Positions 1 to 34,089 of a stretch of 35,213 nt of DNA are shown piece by piece. The DNA is from a virus: positions 1 to 35,213 of the IMG/VR virus record IMGVR_UViG_3300048026_000397, one strand, 5' to 3'. Made by a program: the position numbers and the translations under genes. The notes beneath the pieces were generated by a model that saw only the letters and a list, made by a program, of their open reading frames with translations, had not been told where the DNA came from and ran no database searches. Every line of letters begins with the position of its first letter. Position 1 is the stretch's first letter.

Positions 1-568
1 CGACGTCATGTCTGCGATCGAAGCGCTTTGCGGTAAGCACGATTACAAGACTGTCGTTATTGACTCGCTCGACCACCTGGAGCCCTTGATCTGGAAGAAG
101 GTCTGCGAAGACAACAACGTCAAAAGCATCGAGCAGCTGACATACGGCAAAGGCTACGTCATGGCTCTCGACCTGTGGCGCGACCTGCTGTCTGGCTTGC
201 GGTTTGTTCGCGACAACCAGGGCATGAACGTCCTGCTGATCGCACACCACCAGATCCGCAAGCACGCAGACCCAGAGATGGAGCAGATCGATCGGTACGA
301 GATCAAGCTCCACGCGAAAGCCAGCGCGCTAGTGCAAGAGTCGTGCGACCTGGTGCTCTTCGCGAAGCACAAAACTTTAATTAAGAAAGAAGACACGGGC
401 TTCGGCAACACGCGAGCCCGCGGCATCAGCACCGGCAAGCGCGTGCTCTGCACCGTCGAAACGCCGGCGTATGTGGCAAAGAACCGATTCGGCTTGCCAG
501 ACGAGATTGATCTCAGCTGGGACGCCCTCACCACCGCAATGAACAACAAACTCGAAGGAGCAGCCTGA
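1..568 (+). CDS. Sak4-like AAA ATPase (recombinase-like), C-terminal part
   Basis: This is the C-terminal part of a RecA-fold phage ATPase of the AAA_24/Sak4 kind, which acts with an SSB in single-strand annealing recombination. The frame is open from base 1. A Walker B strand is visible (KTVVIDSLD, near bases 48-74), followed by a sensor-like LLIAHHQ and the family-typical ending AYVAKNRFGLPDEI. There is no start codon or Walker A here; both are in the gene fragment beginning at 35047, and the two pieces join in frame. The stop overlaps the next start (TGATG). Downstream are the DUF669 protein and a nuclease, which is the usual recombination set. The family call is firm; the recombinase role is inferred from characterised Sak4 proteins. 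Confidence 0.88.
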   Translation, partial: DVMSAIEALCGKHDYKTVVIDSLDHLEPLIWKKVCEDNNVKSIEQLTYGKGYVMALDLWRDLLSGLRFVRDNQGMNVLLIAHHQIRKHADPEMEQIDRYEIKLHAKASALVQESCDLVLFAKHKTLIKKEDTGFGNTRARGISTGKRVLCTVETPAYVAKNRFGLPDEIDLSWDALTTAMNNKLEGAA

Positions 569-17498: not shown

Positions 17499-18086
17499 TC
17501 ACGCTGCCCGTTGCCATGATGTGCTGGCACTGGGCTGTTTTGTGTAGTTCGTGCTTGCGCTGGATTCATCTGACCAGCTGGTTGTGGCACCCGATTCGGT
17601 TTGCCATTTAATTTCGCCAGCAGCTGTGACTGAGCTTTGAGCACTGATCGCTGCAGCGCCAAAGCGAACCTGACCGCCGCTTGCTGTAAACGTAGAAGCG
17701 GCTGCGATAGTCGCCCTGCCGTTGAGTAGCGTGCTTGACGACGCAGTCGCGCTGCTTGTTGCGCTAATCGAAGCAGCTGCGCTGACAACCACGTTTGCAT
17801 TCGAGCTAAACGAAGACGAAGCCGCAATGAGCGCAGCAACGTGCCTAAACCTTTGCCCGCTTGCTGTAACTGTAGAAGAGGCTGCGACTGTCGCGCCTGC
17901 TTCCCTAATGCGACCGCCATCGGCAGTAACCAAAGCGCCAGCACTGATAGCTGCCGAAGCGTTTGCCACCACTTGCGCAGCCGCTGAAGCAGACGACGAA
18001 GCAGCGATAGTCGCGCTAGCGTCGTAGTAACTCCATTGACCAAAGCGTCCAGCGCTCCAACTACCATTGCCATAACCCTGGCTCAC
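17499..18086 (-). CDS. Ala/Ser-rich repetitive structural protein
   Basis: 195 aa. After MSQGYGNGSWSAGRFGQW the protein is a run of about seven units of 20-25 residues with core A-x-I-A-A-S-S-x-T-A-S-G and spaced Arg/Gly, for example AGATVAASSTVTASGQRFR. The C-terminus is Ser/Thr/Trp-rich (GATTSWSDESSASTNY). The start is GTG at 18086, immediately after the upstream stop. Repeats of this kind suggest a beta-solenoid or fibrous protein between the adaptor and the fibre. A second frame on the same strand is also open through most of it but encodes only Leu/Gln/Arg-rich nonsense. Confidence 0.6.
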   Translation of the reverse strand: MSQGYGNGSWSAGRFGQWSYYDASATIAASSSASAAAQVVANASAAISAGALVTADGGRIREAGATVAASSTVTASGQRFRHVAALIAASSSFSSNANVVVSAAASISATSSATASSSTLLNGRATIAAASTFTASGGQVRFGAAAISAQSSVTAAGEIKWQTESGATTSWSDESSASTNYTKQPSASTSWQRAA

Positions 18087-26403: not shown

Positions 26404-27804
26404 TTAGGTAATTGACAGCCCTCGCCTGAGCGGTTTCTGCCAGCTGCTAGCCGCGCTCATCACGCCGCTGAGCGTCATTGCGTCGCTGGCAAATGTGAGG
26501 CACAAAGAGTCAGCCAAGTCAGGCGAGCGCAGCCCGCGCTTGCGCATCTGGTCTTTGCTTTCCAGCTGCATCTTGCCGGAGCTCGTGAACTTGTACTTGG
26601 CGCTAACGAGCTCCGCGAGCAGGTCGTCGTCCTGGGGCAGCGACACGTCACGGGCCTCGAGCCAGGCTTTCACCTTAAACCAGAGCTCAGCGCGCAGGTT
26701 GATGTAAGTCGCCTTGCTGCTCGGGCTCTCGCTGGTGTTGATGCCTACCGCCGGCAGGCCGAGCTCACGCAGGCGGTCGCACACGCCACCGCCAAGGCCA
26801 ATCGAGTCCACGTTGATCTGAACCGGCTGCGTTCGCGGCTGCTGGCTTTCATACTCGGCAACCACGGCGCCGCATAGCTGCATAAGATCCAAGCCCTGCC
26901 AGGTCTGGATGCCCATGAGCTCGCGCCCGCGGCGCTTACAAAGCGCACTGCGGTCGGAGCCAAAGCGGCTCACGTCCAAGCCCCACACGATCGGCTCGTC
27001 TTCAGTGATAACAACCTCGCGCCTTTGGGCGCTTTCAACGAGCTCGAGCGGAATCGCCGTGTCGTCGTCGCGCTGCGGAAACTCGCCAAGCACGCGCACG
27101 CGAAAGGCATTGCTCTCTTCGCCAAAGCGCGCAGCCATCTCACTCACATAATCTTGGCTCACCCTGGGCGAGTCGATGCAGCTGACCTTGCGAGTCCACC
27201 AATCACCCGCCATGCGGTGGTGGGTATCGAAGAAGAAGCCAGAGCTCCTGGTCGGGTTGCCGAGCAGAACGGTCGTTGCGTGCTCGCCCGACATCGAGCC
27301 AGCTGCGGCCTCAAAAACCGCCTCGGGGATACCGGAGGCTTCGTCGCACACCAACATCACGTTGTCTGAGTGAACGCCTTGCAGCGCTTCTGGCGTTTCT
27401 GCTCTCGATGTCCGACATGAAATAAACGCCTCGCTCGGCGCGGCCTTTAGGCTTACGCGGTCAGACTTAACTTCCAAGAGCTCTTTGATCGCCACAGGGC
27501 ACTCATTGATCCAGCGCTTGAGCTCCGCAAACAGAGCGTCGAACAGCTGCGCGCTGGTCGGCGCGGTTACGACGACTTTGACGGGATATCGCGTCAGCAA
27601 AAAGTGCAGCATCGCCCACGAGCTCGCCGTGGATTTGCCGGTGCCGTGGCCAGAGCGCACGCTGATTTTGCGCTCGCCAGATGCTATGGCATTGAGGAAT
27701 TCTTTTTGCCAGGCGTCGGGTGATTGCTTGAGCACTTGCTCAACAAAAGCGACGGGATCACTGCGAAAGCGCTTAACAAACGCCACATATGGGTTTTCAG
27801 GCAT
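26404..27804 (-). CDS. terL: Terminase large subunit (ATPase/nuclease)
   Basis: 466 aa from the ATG at 27804. A longer frame upstream runs through repeat DNA and is not plausible coding. Residues 3-40 (NPYVAFVKRFRSDPVAFVEQ and following) match Sf6/HK97-type large terminases. Walker A is SGHGTGKS (51-58), Walker B VMLVCDEASG with DE at 154-155, and the C-terminal RNase-H-like nuclease has GLDVSRFGSDRSA and an Asp in NVDSIGLGGG. It pumps DNA into the prohead and cuts it. It is separated from the small subunit by about 2.4 kb of small genes, and a phased repeat array lies just before it. Confidence 0.93.
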   Translation of the reverse strand: MPENPYVAFVKRFRSDPVAFVEQVLKQSPDAWQKEFLNAIASGERKISVRSGHGTGKSTASSWAMLHFLLTRYPVKVVVTAPTSAQLFDALFAELKRWINECPVAIKELLEVKSDRVSLKAAPSEAFISCRTSRAETPEALQGVHSDNVMLVCDEASGIPEAVFEAAAGSMSGEHATTVLLGNPTRSSGFFFDTHHRMAGDWWTRKVSCIDSPRVSQDYVSEMAARFGEESNAFRVRVLGEFPQRDDDTAIPLELVESAQRREVVITEDEPIVWGLDVSRFGSDRSALCKRRGRELMGIQTWQGLDLMQLCGAVVAEYESQQPRTQPVQINVDSIGLGGGVCDRLRELGLPAVGINTSESPSSKATYINLRAELWFKVKAWLEARDVSLPQDDDLLAELVSAKYKFTSSGKMQLESKDQMRKRGLRSPDLADSLCLTFASDAMTLSGVMSAASSWQKPLRRGLSIT

Positions 27805-27825
27805 GACACATTGTACCGCTTTATG

Positions 27826-27930
27826 GTCTGAGCAAAGGTCTGAGCAGAAATGAGCAGCGTTCCGAGCAGAAATGGGACGCTCCGAGCAGGTCAGGGACTG
27901 ACCAGGGACTGACCAGGGATAGGTCAGGGA
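27826..27930. repeat. Helically phased short repeats upstream of terL (candidate pac/cos or operator)
   Basis: Five GAGCA units start at 27830, 27842, 27852, 27864 and 27884 (steps 12, 10, 12, 20), followed by four CAGGGA units at 27903, 27914 and 27925 preceded by 27892, exactly 11 bases apart. The 130-base gap is otherwise empty of genes. Regular one-turn spacing suggests a multimeric DNA-binding protein on one face of the helix; the small terminase is an obvious candidate. Confidence 0.6.
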
Positions 27931-27934
27931 TTCG

Positions 27935-28294
27935 TTAGTCGTATATGTGGCGCGGGTTGAGCTCGTCAGTTGGATTGTGGAACGGGTCGTCAATGACTTG
28001 GCCGCTAGAGTCAAAGGTGATTTCTTGTTCGATTAAATCTCTGACCATTTGATCTATCTCGTCGATGGGGCTTCCGTCTACATAGTCGCGTATCCAGTCA
28101 GTGACGCGAACCAGGTCGATGAACTTGGGCGACGGATCGTCATAGCGAAATTTCTTAACGTCAGGCGGGCTGACGTGGTAACTCTCGTATGCAGCGCCAA
28201 GCTCGAAGTAAATGCTAATCGTGCCCCTGCGCCACATCTCAGAGTCTTCGAGCTCTACTTCGACCAATAAATCGTCAAACTTTTTACTTACCAT
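27935..28294 (-). CDS. Small acidic protein, unknown function
   Basis: 119 aa. It begins MVSKKFDDLLVEVELEDSEM, then GTISIYFELGAAYESYHVSP, and a C-terminal acidic region IDEIDQMVRDLIEQEITFD. It is the last small gene before the terminase array, on the same strand as terL. It does not resemble a family I can name. Strongly acidic character could mean DNA mimicry, which is speculation. Confidence 0.55.
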   Translation of the reverse strand: MVSKKFDDLLVEVELEDSEMWRRGTISIYFELGAAYESYHVSPPDVKKFRYDDPSPKFIDLVRVTDWIRDYVDGSPIDEIDQMVRDLIEQEITFDSSGQVIDDPFHNPTDELNPRHIYD

Positions 28295-28315
28295 GCCTGC
28301 AGCCTATCACTTTGC

Positions 28316-28331
28316 GCCCGCGCTAGCGGGC
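28316..28331. repeat. GC hairpin after small gene (6-bp stem, GCTA loop)
   Basis: GCCCGC-GCTA-GCGGGC. It lies downstream of the small gene ending at 28359 on the minus strand and has no T-run, so it is not a standard terminator. Stem length and loop size equal those of the hairpins on the neighbouring stop codons. Confidence 0.5.
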
Positions 28332-28352
28332 TGATTCGGTGAGATTGCCTCC

Positions 28353-28368
28353 GGCGGCTTACGCGGCT
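28353..28368 (-). repeat. Stop-codon hairpin copy 3 (imperfect)
   Basis: On the minus strand AGCCGC-GTAA-GCCGCC overlaps the TAA of the 75-aa gene. The stem has mismatches, but the position over the stop codon, the GTAA loop and the following GGAGG match the better copies at 28601 and 28879. Confidence 0.5.
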
Positions 28369-28586
28369 CCTTGATTTGCGAGGTCAATCACCTCGTCCCA
28401 AAACTCCGCAGAAGGGCCGACGTACCACGAGACCACGAACGACTCGGCTTGACTTGAGTTCCAAGTCGTACCATTCGGTGCGTCGACGCAGATATGCTTG
28501 TCGGTCGTGGTGATGCTCGTGACATCCCAATCGACCTCACCGCCGTGCTGGTTGATAACACTTAATGCTTGCTTGCGTGTTGCCAT
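28359..28586 (-). CDS. Small protein ending in Ala-Ala, unknown function
   Basis: 75 aa, ATG at 28586. MATRKQALSVINQHGGEVDW, then TDKHICVDAPNGTTWNSSQA and VSWYVGPSAEFWDEVIDLAN. It is one of three consecutive small genes whose stop codon sits in the loop of a GC hairpin. I recall similar short proteins in phages and plasmids without function. The Shine-Dalgarno sequence is weak (CAGGGGAC upstream). Probably a host-takeover or accessory factor by position. Confidence 0.55.
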   Translation of the reverse strand: MATRKQALSVINQHGGEVDWDVTSITTTDKHICVDAPNGTTWNSSQAESFVVSWYVGPSAEFWDEVIDLANQGAA

Positions 28587-28600
28587 GTCGTTGTCCCCTG

Positions 28601-28616
28601 GGCCGCTTACGCGGCC
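28601..28616 (-). repeat. Stop-codon hairpin copy 2
   Basis: On the minus strand GGCCGC-GTAA-GCGGCC, a perfect 6-bp stem with a GNRA-type GTAA loop containing the stop codon TAA of the 85-aa gene. Confidence 0.7.
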
Positions 28617-28864
28617 TGCTTGTATTGCTTGATATTGTTAGGCACCCAGACCTGAGTGCGTGGCAGAACAGCGCCATTGCGCTGATAGCGAACAGGCCGG
28701 TCGGCCCACTCGATCCAGCACAGGGTGTGAGTAGCGCCAAGCTCGCTGTGGTTGCTGTCGAGCACGTCGATAATGACGGCCTCTTCGCCGTTCATGTCAG
28801 CGCCAGCGACTAGGTGGCTTTCCACCTGAGTCACAAAAATGATGTTGCCTACCGTCAGTTCCAT
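28607..28864 (-). CDS. Small protein, unknown function
   Basis: 85 aa from the ATG at 28864, which is preceded by a strong GGAGGAG ribosome binding site; an upstream in-frame ATG at 28924 would overlap the previous gene and is unlikely. Beta-rich: ELTVGNIIFVTQVESHLVAG, then EEAVIIDVLDSNHSE and HTLCWIEWADRPVRYQ. It ends KQAA. It resembles small SH3-like or OB-like phage proteins but cannot be assigned. It is second in a run of four small genes leading to terL. Confidence 0.6.
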   Translation of the reverse strand: MELTVGNIIFVTQVESHLVAGADMNGEEAVIIDVLDSNHSELGATHTLCWIEWADRPVRYQRNGAVLPRTQVWVPNNIKQYKQAA

Positions 28865-28878
28865 GTCGTTTCTCCTCC

Positions 28879-28894
28879 GGCGGCTTACGCCGCC
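28879..28894 (-). repeat. Stop-codon hairpin copy 1
   Basis: On the minus strand GGCGGC-GTAA-GCCGCC, a perfect stem with the stop codon TAA in the loop, immediately followed by the GGAGGAG ribosome binding site of the next gene. This placement could couple or modulate termination and reinitiation. Confidence 0.7.
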
Positions 28895-29232
28895 TTGTTT
28901 ATGTTGACTGTCTCGAAGCCGCAATTTGCGACCAAGTAAAACTGACCGTCCATTTCAAGCACGTCCCCGACCGATACGCTGCTCATTTGCGCGTGTTTTT
29001 GAACTAGCTCTGGCTTTTCCCAAAGGTTTGTCAGTCGAAAAACCTCGCCCAAGTCCGTAGCGTCTACCGTGGCAACATGGTCATAAGCGTGGAACCATTG
29101 AGTCGGGTCAATTTTGCCCATGCCCTTGTCTGCAAAAGCCATAGTCTTTTCTGAAGCGCCCCATCCCTCTTTGTTCAAAAGATCAATGTCTTCTTGCGTG
29201 AGGTGAAACTGGTAGATTTTTACTGTCATCAT
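28885..29232 (-). CDS. YodL-like domain protein
   Basis: 115 aa; two ATGs are adjacent (29232 and 29229), and the second has the better spacing to GGAGAACG. QFHLTQEDIDLLNKEGWGAS, then YDHVATVDATDLGEVFRLTN and SSVSVGDVLEMDGQFYLVAN followed by CGFETV. The C-terminal part matches the YodL-type domain found in phages, plasmids and polyvalent proteins; N-terminal part resembles a family often seen on conjugative plasmids. Function unknown, anti-host role suspected. First gene of the leftward late transcription unit, directly below the palindromic operator. Confidence 0.66.
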   Translation of the reverse strand: MMTVKIYQFHLTQEDIDLLNKEGWGASEKTMAFADKGMGKIDPTQWFHAYDHVATVDATDLGEVFRLTNLWEKPELVQKHAQMSSVSVGDVLEMDGQFYLVANCGFETVNINKAA

Positions 29233-29255
29233 CGTTCTCCGTTGTTATGGCCCTA

Positions 29256-29283
29256 ATTATACCGATATTGTTCTATCTGTCAC
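29256..29283 (-). promoter_or_regulatory. Leftward promoter for the small-gene/late operon
   Basis: On the minus strand a perfect -10 TATAAT (29261-29256) lies 16 bases downstream of GTGACA (29283-29278), which is part of the palindromic operator. Repressor binding would block this promoter directly. Confidence 0.65.
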
Positions 29284-29296
29284 CTTTTTGGTGACA
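29278..29296. promoter_or_regulatory. Perfect palindromic operator
   Basis: TGTCACC-TTTTT-GGTGACA, perfect 7-bp half-sites. The same half-site occurs between the repressor and Cro-like genes (33638-33717) and, degenerate, upstream of the early operon (34559). It overlaps the -35 elements of both divergent promoters here. Confidence 0.78.
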
Positions 29297-29317
29297 ATAA
29301 ATAGAAATAAATATGAG
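29288..29317 (+). promoter_or_regulatory. Rightward promoter for the small basic-protein genes
   Basis: TTGGTG (29288-29293), 18-base spacer, TATGAG (29312-29317). The arrangement is the same as at 34569-34598. The -35 lies within the operator. A GGAG Shine-Dalgarno at 29347 precedes the ATG at 29356. Confidence 0.5.
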
Positions 29318-29355
29318 AAAATTAGAGCTCACCAATCACCACATATGGAGCTCCC

Positions 29356-29487
29356 ATGTACGGATCACACTCAAAAACCATGAAAGCCATGAAAGGCAAG
29401 CGATCGGCAACCAAAGAAGCGCGCAACGCACGCATGGCTGCCGGCACGAACATGCCAGTCGTTAAGCCACCCTACCCACCACGCTAG
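29356..29487 (+). CDS. Tiny basic protein 1
   Basis: 43 aa, ATG at 29356 with GGAG five bases upstream. Lys/Arg/Met-rich: MYGSHSKTMKAMKGKRSATK, then EARNARMAAG and a Pro-rich end VVKPPYPPR. It is the first of three basic genes on the plus strand in an otherwise leftward region, under the same palindromic operator as the late operon. It may bind nucleic acid or be a virion-packaged cofactor. I recall short MK-rich proteins of this kind in marine phages; no function is established. Confidence 0.55.
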   Translation: MYGSHSKTMKAMKGKRSATKEARNARMAAGTNMPVVKPPYPPR

Positions 29488-29489
29488 CC

Positions 29490-29744
29490 GTGGCCACACC
29501 ACGCAAGGGCAAAGCCCGCGTCAAAGTAACGGCCAGCGGGAAGAAAGTGTCCTACGGCCAGGCGGGCAAGGCCAAAGACGGCTCGCGGCGCGTGCAGCCT
29601 GCGAGCAAGAAAGGCGACGCCTACTGCGCCAGGTCTGCCGGCCAGATGAAGAAGCACCCCAAGGCCGCCAAGAACCCAAACAGCCCGCTGCGGCTTTCGC
29701 GAAAGCGCTGGAAGTGCGCGGGCACGAAATCTAGGAGGAAGTGA
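29490..29744 (+). CDS. Small basic Cys-containing protein (DUF6321/DUF5872-like)
   Basis: 84 aa from a GTG start two bases after the preceding stop. The sequence KGKARVKVTASGKKVSYGQA, AKDGSRRVQPASKKGDAYCA, then NPNSPLRLSRKRWKCAGTKS is a pattern seen in many marine and cyanophage genomes as a small basic protein of unknown function. Cys at the two ends of the second half (YCARS and KWKCAG-like) could bind metal. It overlaps the next ATG (GTGATG). Possibly a DNA-associated virion protein; not shown. Confidence 0.7.
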   Translation: MATPRKGKARVKVTASGKKVSYGQAGKAKDGSRRVQPASKKGDAYCARSAGQMKKHPKAAKNPNSPLRLSRKRWKCAGTKSRRK

Positions 29745-33750: not shown

Positions 33751-34089
33751 ATGAAGGACATCGCCGACCGCATACGCGATCTCCGGAATGCACGCGAATT
33801 AAGCCTGCGTCAACTGGCTGACCTGTCCGGAATAAATCACAACGTCATTCACAAATGGGAGACTAGGAAGGCAACACCAAACCGATCGAACGTCGTTAAA
33901 CTCGCCGATCTGTTCAACGTGAAGCCTGCCTGGTTGCTGTTTGGGCGTGACGACAACGCAACGGGCCTGAATGTGCAAGACACCTTTGCCGCACTGTCTA
34001 TCCCCTCACAACAACAAGTAGACGCGCTCATCAACCATCTATTGGACATAGAGAGCGCTAGGGAATCAGCACATGGAAAAGACTCATAA
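33751..34089 (+). CDS. cI-like XRE repressor without peptidase domain
   Basis: 112 aa. The XRE helix-turn-helix covers about residues 5-62: RIRDLRNARELSLRQLADLS, GINHNVIHKWETRKATPNRS, VVKLADLFNVKPAWLLFG. The remaining ~45 residues are a short helical tail for dimerisation; no LexA/S24 Ser-Lys peptidase region is present. It is the likely lysogeny repressor and binds the TGTCACC operators upstream. A strong AAGGAG precedes the ATG. The next gene starts inside its last codons. Confidence 0.88.
   Translation: MKDIADRIRDLRNARELSLRQLADLSGINHNVIHKWETRKATPNRSNVVKLADLFNVKPAWLLFGRDDNATGLNVQDTFAALSIPSQQQVDALINHLLDIESARESAHGKDS

Follow-up and report, generated by a model that had tools for sequence, protein, structure and literature searches.

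The window, i.e., the whole stretch of DNA that was analysed, is a 35,213-base virus record from a temperate-type tailed phage, described as marine-type, which encodes an integrase along with excisionase-like and repressor-like genes, an SU10-type portal, a terminase and a Prim-Pol primase, as well as a Sak4-like annealing protein, an SSB and a Cas4-domain exonuclease. One segment (29541-29732) shares ~70% identity with hypothetical genes from phages of Vibrio lentus, a weak hint as to the host group. Between conserved flanks, at 27.9-29.3 kb on the minus strand, sit three small genes, whose neighborhood, together with the annealing protein discussed below, is laid out as follows:

8..568 (+): Sak4-like single-strand annealing protein (phrog_124, E = 1.3e-30)
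27935..28294 (-): gene 4, the first gene of the conserved right flank
28316..28331 (-): fourth hairpin, GCCCGC-UAGC-GCGGGC, the former stop-codon hairpin of a deleted gene
28332..28352 (-): remnant of a deleted cassette, comprising the ribosome-binding site (RBS) GGAGGCA and last codons (L-T-E-S)
28353..28368 (-): third joint, AGCCGC-GTAA-GCCGCC, chimeric and poorly folding (z = +1.2)
28359..28586 (-): cassette gene 3, 75 aa, no family match
28601..28616 (-): hairpin 2 (type C), GGCCGC-GUAA-GCGGCC, UAA stop in the loop, -13.5 kcal/mol
28607..28864 (-): cassette gene 2, 85 aa, no family match
28879..28894 (-): hairpin 1 (type G), GGCGGC-GUAA-GCCGCC, UAA stop in the loop, -13.9 kcal/mol
28885..29232 (-): cassette gene 1, 115 aa, no family match
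29236..29262 (-): shared leader before the first cassette, with -10 box and RBS (GTATAATTAGGGCCATAACAACGGAGA)
29256..29283 (-): promoter of the array, GTGACA-16-TATAAT, 11/12 in a consensus scan, kept in relatives
29279..29295 (no strand): palindrome GTCACC-N5-GGTGAC, overlapping the -35 element, operator-like

Searches against PHROG and Pfam returned no match for the three cassette genes, and tblastn of gene 1 against annotated phages likewise found none. A promoter scan of 27700-29600 recovered a single promoter-like site, upstream of gene 1, and none at the hairpins. This sigma-70-like promoter overlaps the 17-bp palindrome, which is conserved in relatives and occurs in the same place in eight other loci, some of them from one contig; it is a candidate operator for a phage repressor, and the regulator encoded at 33751-34089 (+) perhaps acts on it. 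The leader is identical in four contigs (L006-L009) and near-identical in two more (L085, L088), all of them otherwise unlike the window. On the other side of the array, between gene 4 and the start of the terminase (27840-27945), lie short, imperfect repeats (GAGCAGAAATG..., GACTGACCAGG...) that may be a site of packaging or regulation.

The sequence-only reading of this DNA had described GC hairpins centred on the stop codons of three consecutive small genes, each following Ala-Ala codons, in genes sharing no other similarity. The open reading frames bear out the core of this description: the TAA in the loop of all three copies is the in-frame stop of the ORFs 28885-29232, 28607-28864 and 28359-28586, all three genes end in Ala-Ala, and their proteins are mutually dissimilar. 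Further, the window holds seven matches to the motif at ≤3 mismatches against a mean of 1.56 in shuffled sequence, with none of 100 shuffles reaching seven; the curated covariance models of Rfam gave no match to 27700-29500 at E up to 1. Other details needed amendment. Copies 1 and 2 fold well, but the third is not a working hairpin; its 5' arm is of type C (as in the contig L293) and its 3' arm of type G, and it looks like the result of an exchange between the two types. Such chimeric-arm hairpins with a gene after them are rare (1/206), and arrays tend to keep to one arm type (29 CC, 4 GG and 3 mixed). The GGAG-type RBS ascribed to two of the hairpins is in fact AGGGG after hairpin 2, and while an RBS-like GGAGG does follow the third copy, no start codon comes after it. 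The fourth 6-4-6 hairpin reported at 28316 is present, but proves to be the remnant of a deleted gene.

This last point emerges from the close relatives, which share the left and right flanks of the window but enclose different genes. CCGCG-TAA-GCGG closes the first cassette in all seven relatives examined (L136, L138, L140, L142, L143, L144, L183). Four of these (L138, L143, L144, L183) retain an intact last gene, which terminates in GCCCGC-TAAC-GCGGGC, such that the counterpart of the fourth hairpin holds a stop in its loop, UAAC; in L138 and L143 an intact 71-aa gene occupies the position of the remnant at 28332..28352. Thus, the fourth hairpin exists because the window kept the RBS and last codons of this gene and lost its body. 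The close relatives often retain stems of only 4-5 bp. Outside the clade, the matches shrink to islands: over 6.3 kb of another phage, L321, similarity to the window is confined to 28869-29266 (98.5%), in L006-L009 it is confined to about 28602-28867 (the gene 2 island), and in L293 to 28353-28617 (the gene 3 island, both hairpins included). The three genes therefore move separately, with the edges of the islands falling on the hairpins. Absence of the hairpins from homologous gene ends would have spoken against their significance; they are kept in 11/11 homologues of gene 1 and 10/10 convincing homologues of gene 2, with 4-6 of the 6 pairs in each case, but the picture is mixed for gene 3, whose homologues often go without one. 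A hairpin is therefore not required for a gene. Directly upstream of a gene 3 homologue in L344 (2582-2985), we observed consecutive hairpin-ended cassettes with stops exactly 195 bp apart and two unrelated 56-aa genes. In L092 (5075-5200), an array ends in GGCCGC-GTAA-GCGGCT plus a T run, after which come a new leader and a second array; here, the joint can apparently double as a terminator.

To gauge the spread of the motif, we compared the window with hundreds of viral contigs, largely metagenomic and mostly fetched by the motif itself, in which ORFs were called in a simple manner and motif counts are lower bounds. At least 122 distinct viral copies were found; among the matches listed, the arms are complementary in 114 and non-complementary in eight. 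In the same listed matches, 84/114 complementary copies have an RBS and start codon in the next 50 nt, as against 0/8 with non-complementary arms and 4/114 read in reverse. This RBS-start context served as the criterion in place of open-frame length, which was dropped since most of the non-complementary controls passed it too. With this context, the motif occurs in eight stretches of the genome collection and at least 119 of the viral collection; it is centred on the upstream stop, and the next start codon lies 10-23 nt beyond in most copies. The hairpin-bearing phage contigs are non-T4 and ~25-60 kb in size, and an SU10-type portal match was strong in 11, weak in seven and lacking in 12 of 30 such contigs. 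The stop-codon joint is common to several phage lineages, and at least 110 protein families end in it. In the complete annotated phage genome C72C1 (L219), the motif (GGCCGC-GTAA) lies at an annotated stop, with an RBS and start after it. The gene that comes next there ends in its own hairpin (17860-17880), GGGGC-ATAA-GCCCC, again with the stop in the loop.

A set assembled independently of the motif, comprising 115 loci fetched by protein similarity or the window itself, gave a comparable picture: at least five pairs flank the stop in 33/1078 gene ends that have an RBS and start after them, versus 7/4312 displaced controls. Stems of other sequence likewise hold the stop in the loop (GCCGA-GTAA-TCGGC, GGCTGC-GTAA-GCAGCC and GGGGGC-ATAA-GCCCCC); both arms of these stems vary, with the stop retained in the loop. 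The covariation measured on 16 homologous gene ends is modest, with 5/500 shuffles reaching the score. The protein-similarity loci also hold a further gene-end hairpin, GGCCAA-GTA(A/G)-TTGGC, which has the stop in its loop and no RBS-start after it. The suggestion that the hairpin itself is selected gains from the observation that the 3' arm, although non-coding, varies in step with the coding arm, and conserved Ala codons alone are therefore insufficient to account for it; the matching 3' arm and the stems encoding other protein ends both contradict an origin from such codons. At the level of sequence, these comparisons show a stem maintained through matching changes in both arms, and the paired stem was probably selected as an RNA insulator or 3'-end protector.

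The hairpins also mark the places where gene neighborhoods change. Among pairs sharing the upstream gene, the downstream sequence is unrelated in 58/72 at hairpins, compared with 7/46 at the ends of nearby small genes lacking the hairpin and 45/574 elsewhere; in the mirror test, with the downstream gene shared, the values are 70/82, 16/46 and 53/606, respectively. These pairs come mostly from metagenome contigs fetched by the motif, in which pairs of unrelated phages are over-represented relative to the controls, and this sampling may account for part of the large contrast in break rates. The pairs are also not independent events, and counts of families are the safer measure: at least two unrelated partners were found for 27/36 upstream and 26/31 downstream families. 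Region-wide gene turnover as the sole cause is disfavoured by the behavior of the nearby non-hairpin gene ends.

The breaks can be placed more finely. In pairs with the same upstream gene, identity is ~0.92 up to the hairpin, rises to ~1.0 at most core positions and drops to ~0.25 within ~20 nt past it, the tail of this decay corresponding to the RBS. The first base of the hairpin differs in 6/73 same-upstream against 21/66 same-downstream pairs, and the sixteenth in 28/73 against 10/66. Base 1 goes with the gene upstream and base 16 with the one downstream, which places the crossover inside the 16-mer. Judging from these alignments, whole genes have been swapped at the hairpin between otherwise unrelated phages. 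Of the roles that the sequence-only reading had entertained, that of a mobile element and that of a marker of small-gene cassettes are both strongly supported by the isolated, hairpin-edged islands, the break rates (58/72 vs. 7/46), the swapping of partners and the position of the crossover inside the motif.

Taken together, we consider it likely, with a probability of roughly 0.7, that the hairpins are the joints of an array of promoterless small-gene cassettes, swapped at a repeat whose stem is under selection. Briefly, we advance the following mechanism. One regulated promoter and leader would read a variable row of one-gene cassettes, each consisting of an RBS, an ORF and the 16-bp inverted repeat with the stop codon in its loop. 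Swapping would proceed through the short homology of the 14-16-bp core, to which the RBS often adds, and might be performed by a phage annealing protein or by host recombination; in the window phage, the Sak4-like protein is a candidate for this step. A recognised Sak4, ERF or Rad52-type protein is encoded in 9/30 hairpin contigs, many of them incomplete. Recombinants would survive, since the swap leaves the end of each gene whole and the RBS of the following gene in place. The C(GUAA)G tetraloop is unusually stable, and in the mRNA the hairpin would re-form after each terminating ribosome, keep the next RBS clear of upstream structure, limit coupling to the neighbor and block 3' exonucleases. 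The stem closed by the GNRA-type GUAA, with a free RBS directly after it, would thus render each cassette independent of its neighbor, and any cassette could work beside any other. Structure just past a stop codon reportedly lowers translational coupling (reviewed in PMC12548453), and palindromes or REPs ≤15 nt from a stop stall ribosomes (PMC12306157); this published work favors insulation or a slowing of termination over promoted reinitiation.

Several other explanations have to be weighed against the cassette array. The hairpin might have an RNA function only, gene ends having independently acquired it as a 3'-end, insulator or slow-termination signal; mosaic breaks would then coincide with it simply because phage mosaicism favors gene boundaries. 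Stems of other sequence that still hold the stop in the loop, the presence of GGCCGC-GTAA-GCGGCC at gene ends in a few cellular and unrelated phage genomes, and the stalling of ribosomes by REPs within 15 nt of a stop (PMC12306157) are all compatible with this. However, breaks are far rarer at the non-hairpin ends of neighboring small genes, the copies share primary sequence and not structure alone, and the crossovers map inside the hairpin; hence, we regard this explanation as unlikely, albeit the least so of the alternatives. Somewhat less probable still is a dedicated recombinase, structure- or site-specific, that would recognise the hairpin much as IntI does folded attC sites. The layout is indeed integron-like, with one promoter and leader serving unidirectional cassettes that have no promoter of their own, and with inverted repeats at the gene ends, but a tyrosine integrase was found in only 4/30 hairpin contigs (some being fragments), the repeat has no GTTRRRY core, and there are just 1-3 hairpin copies per genome. 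A recombinase common to all 30 hairpin contigs, many of them incomplete, was sought and none was found. It is similarly doubtful that the folded repeat is an enzyme substrate in a broader sense, for a structure-specific recombinase or annealing machinery, in a compact integron-like form of exchange; if true, unrelated phage lineages would draw on a common pool of small genes.

That the hairpins are intrinsic transcription terminators overlapping the stop codon is very unlikely: a T tract follows 6/114 copies among the matches listed, and also that in L220, but an RBS and start come 10-23 nt on after most copies, no terminator was found on the coding strand at the window hairpins, and some arrays end in a separate terminator-like hairpin. 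Assembly chimeras joined at a short repeat deserve mention as nearly all the contigs are metagenomic. Assembly k-mers are usually longer than 14-16 bp, i.e., than the shared core, six records (L321, L323-L327) share the same junction of gene 1 with the gene after it, and C72C1 is a complete annotated genome, leaving this explanation with hardly any weight. We reject the view that the repeat is a by-product of a selected C-terminal Ala-Ala, e.g., a protease degron. The cassette proteins do end so, largely by construction of the motif, but the non-coding 3' arm nonetheless matches the coding arm, and some stems specify a different C-terminus, e.g., Ala-Glu in L333-L335.

Among known systems, the nearest kind is the PeSLs of T4-like phages, which we compared by way of a summary citing the original work. 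PeSLs, credited to Arbiol 2010 and Comeau 2014, are reportedly promoter early stem-loops, i.e., composite promoter-terminator motifs. As summarized, a short shared stem-loop between small accessory genes mediates gene shuffling among related phages of this kind (PMC4503421); motif-mediated shuffling of small phage genes is, on this account, already known, and the joint described here likewise is a shared motif at which phages exchange accessory genes. However, going by the same summary, each PeSL carries an early promoter whereas the hairpins of the window have none, and here the stem-loop holds the stop codon, usually with the RBS next to it. Further, the window phage, with its 35 kb, integrase, SU10-type portal and Prim-Pol, is not T4-like. 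In cluster K mycobacteriophages, start-associated sequences (SAS/ESAS) lie at the boundaries of some small genes, about half of them with an inverted repeat, as 13 bp plus 17-bp imperfect repeats in 11-19 copies per genome (PMC3203893). Unlike the stop-centred hairpin, they are tied to the translation start of the downstream gene. In integrons, too, a single promoter serves consecutive cassettes that lack promoters of their own and carry an inverted repeat at the end. In contrast to the 16-bp joint, attC sites are much longer, have conserved cores and need IntI; their GTTRRRY core is, by reading, absent from the 16-mer, and the integrase of the window itself matches phage integrase families. 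Finally, REPs resemble the joint in being GC-rich palindromes near gene ends, but they are chromosomal, extragenic and high-copy, whereas the hairpins overlap the end of an ORF, occur in 1-3 copies per phage, hold the stop codon within the loop and are sites at which genes are swapped. In the literature searched, we found no joint built around the stop codon itself and common to several phage lineages.

These observations bear on the old question of how a single small gene can pass intact from one phage to another: recombinants can stay functional because the stop lies in the loop and the RBS directly after it. Short boundary sequences are hard to show as real crossover sites, and here the polymorphic bases of the hairpin do so. 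The at least 110 cassette protein families are almost all without known function, one being an ArdC-type anti-restriction protein, and PADLOC gave no match for the 103 cassette proteins searched. The 16-bp motif thus offers a sequence handle for finding the pool of small genes that phages exchange.
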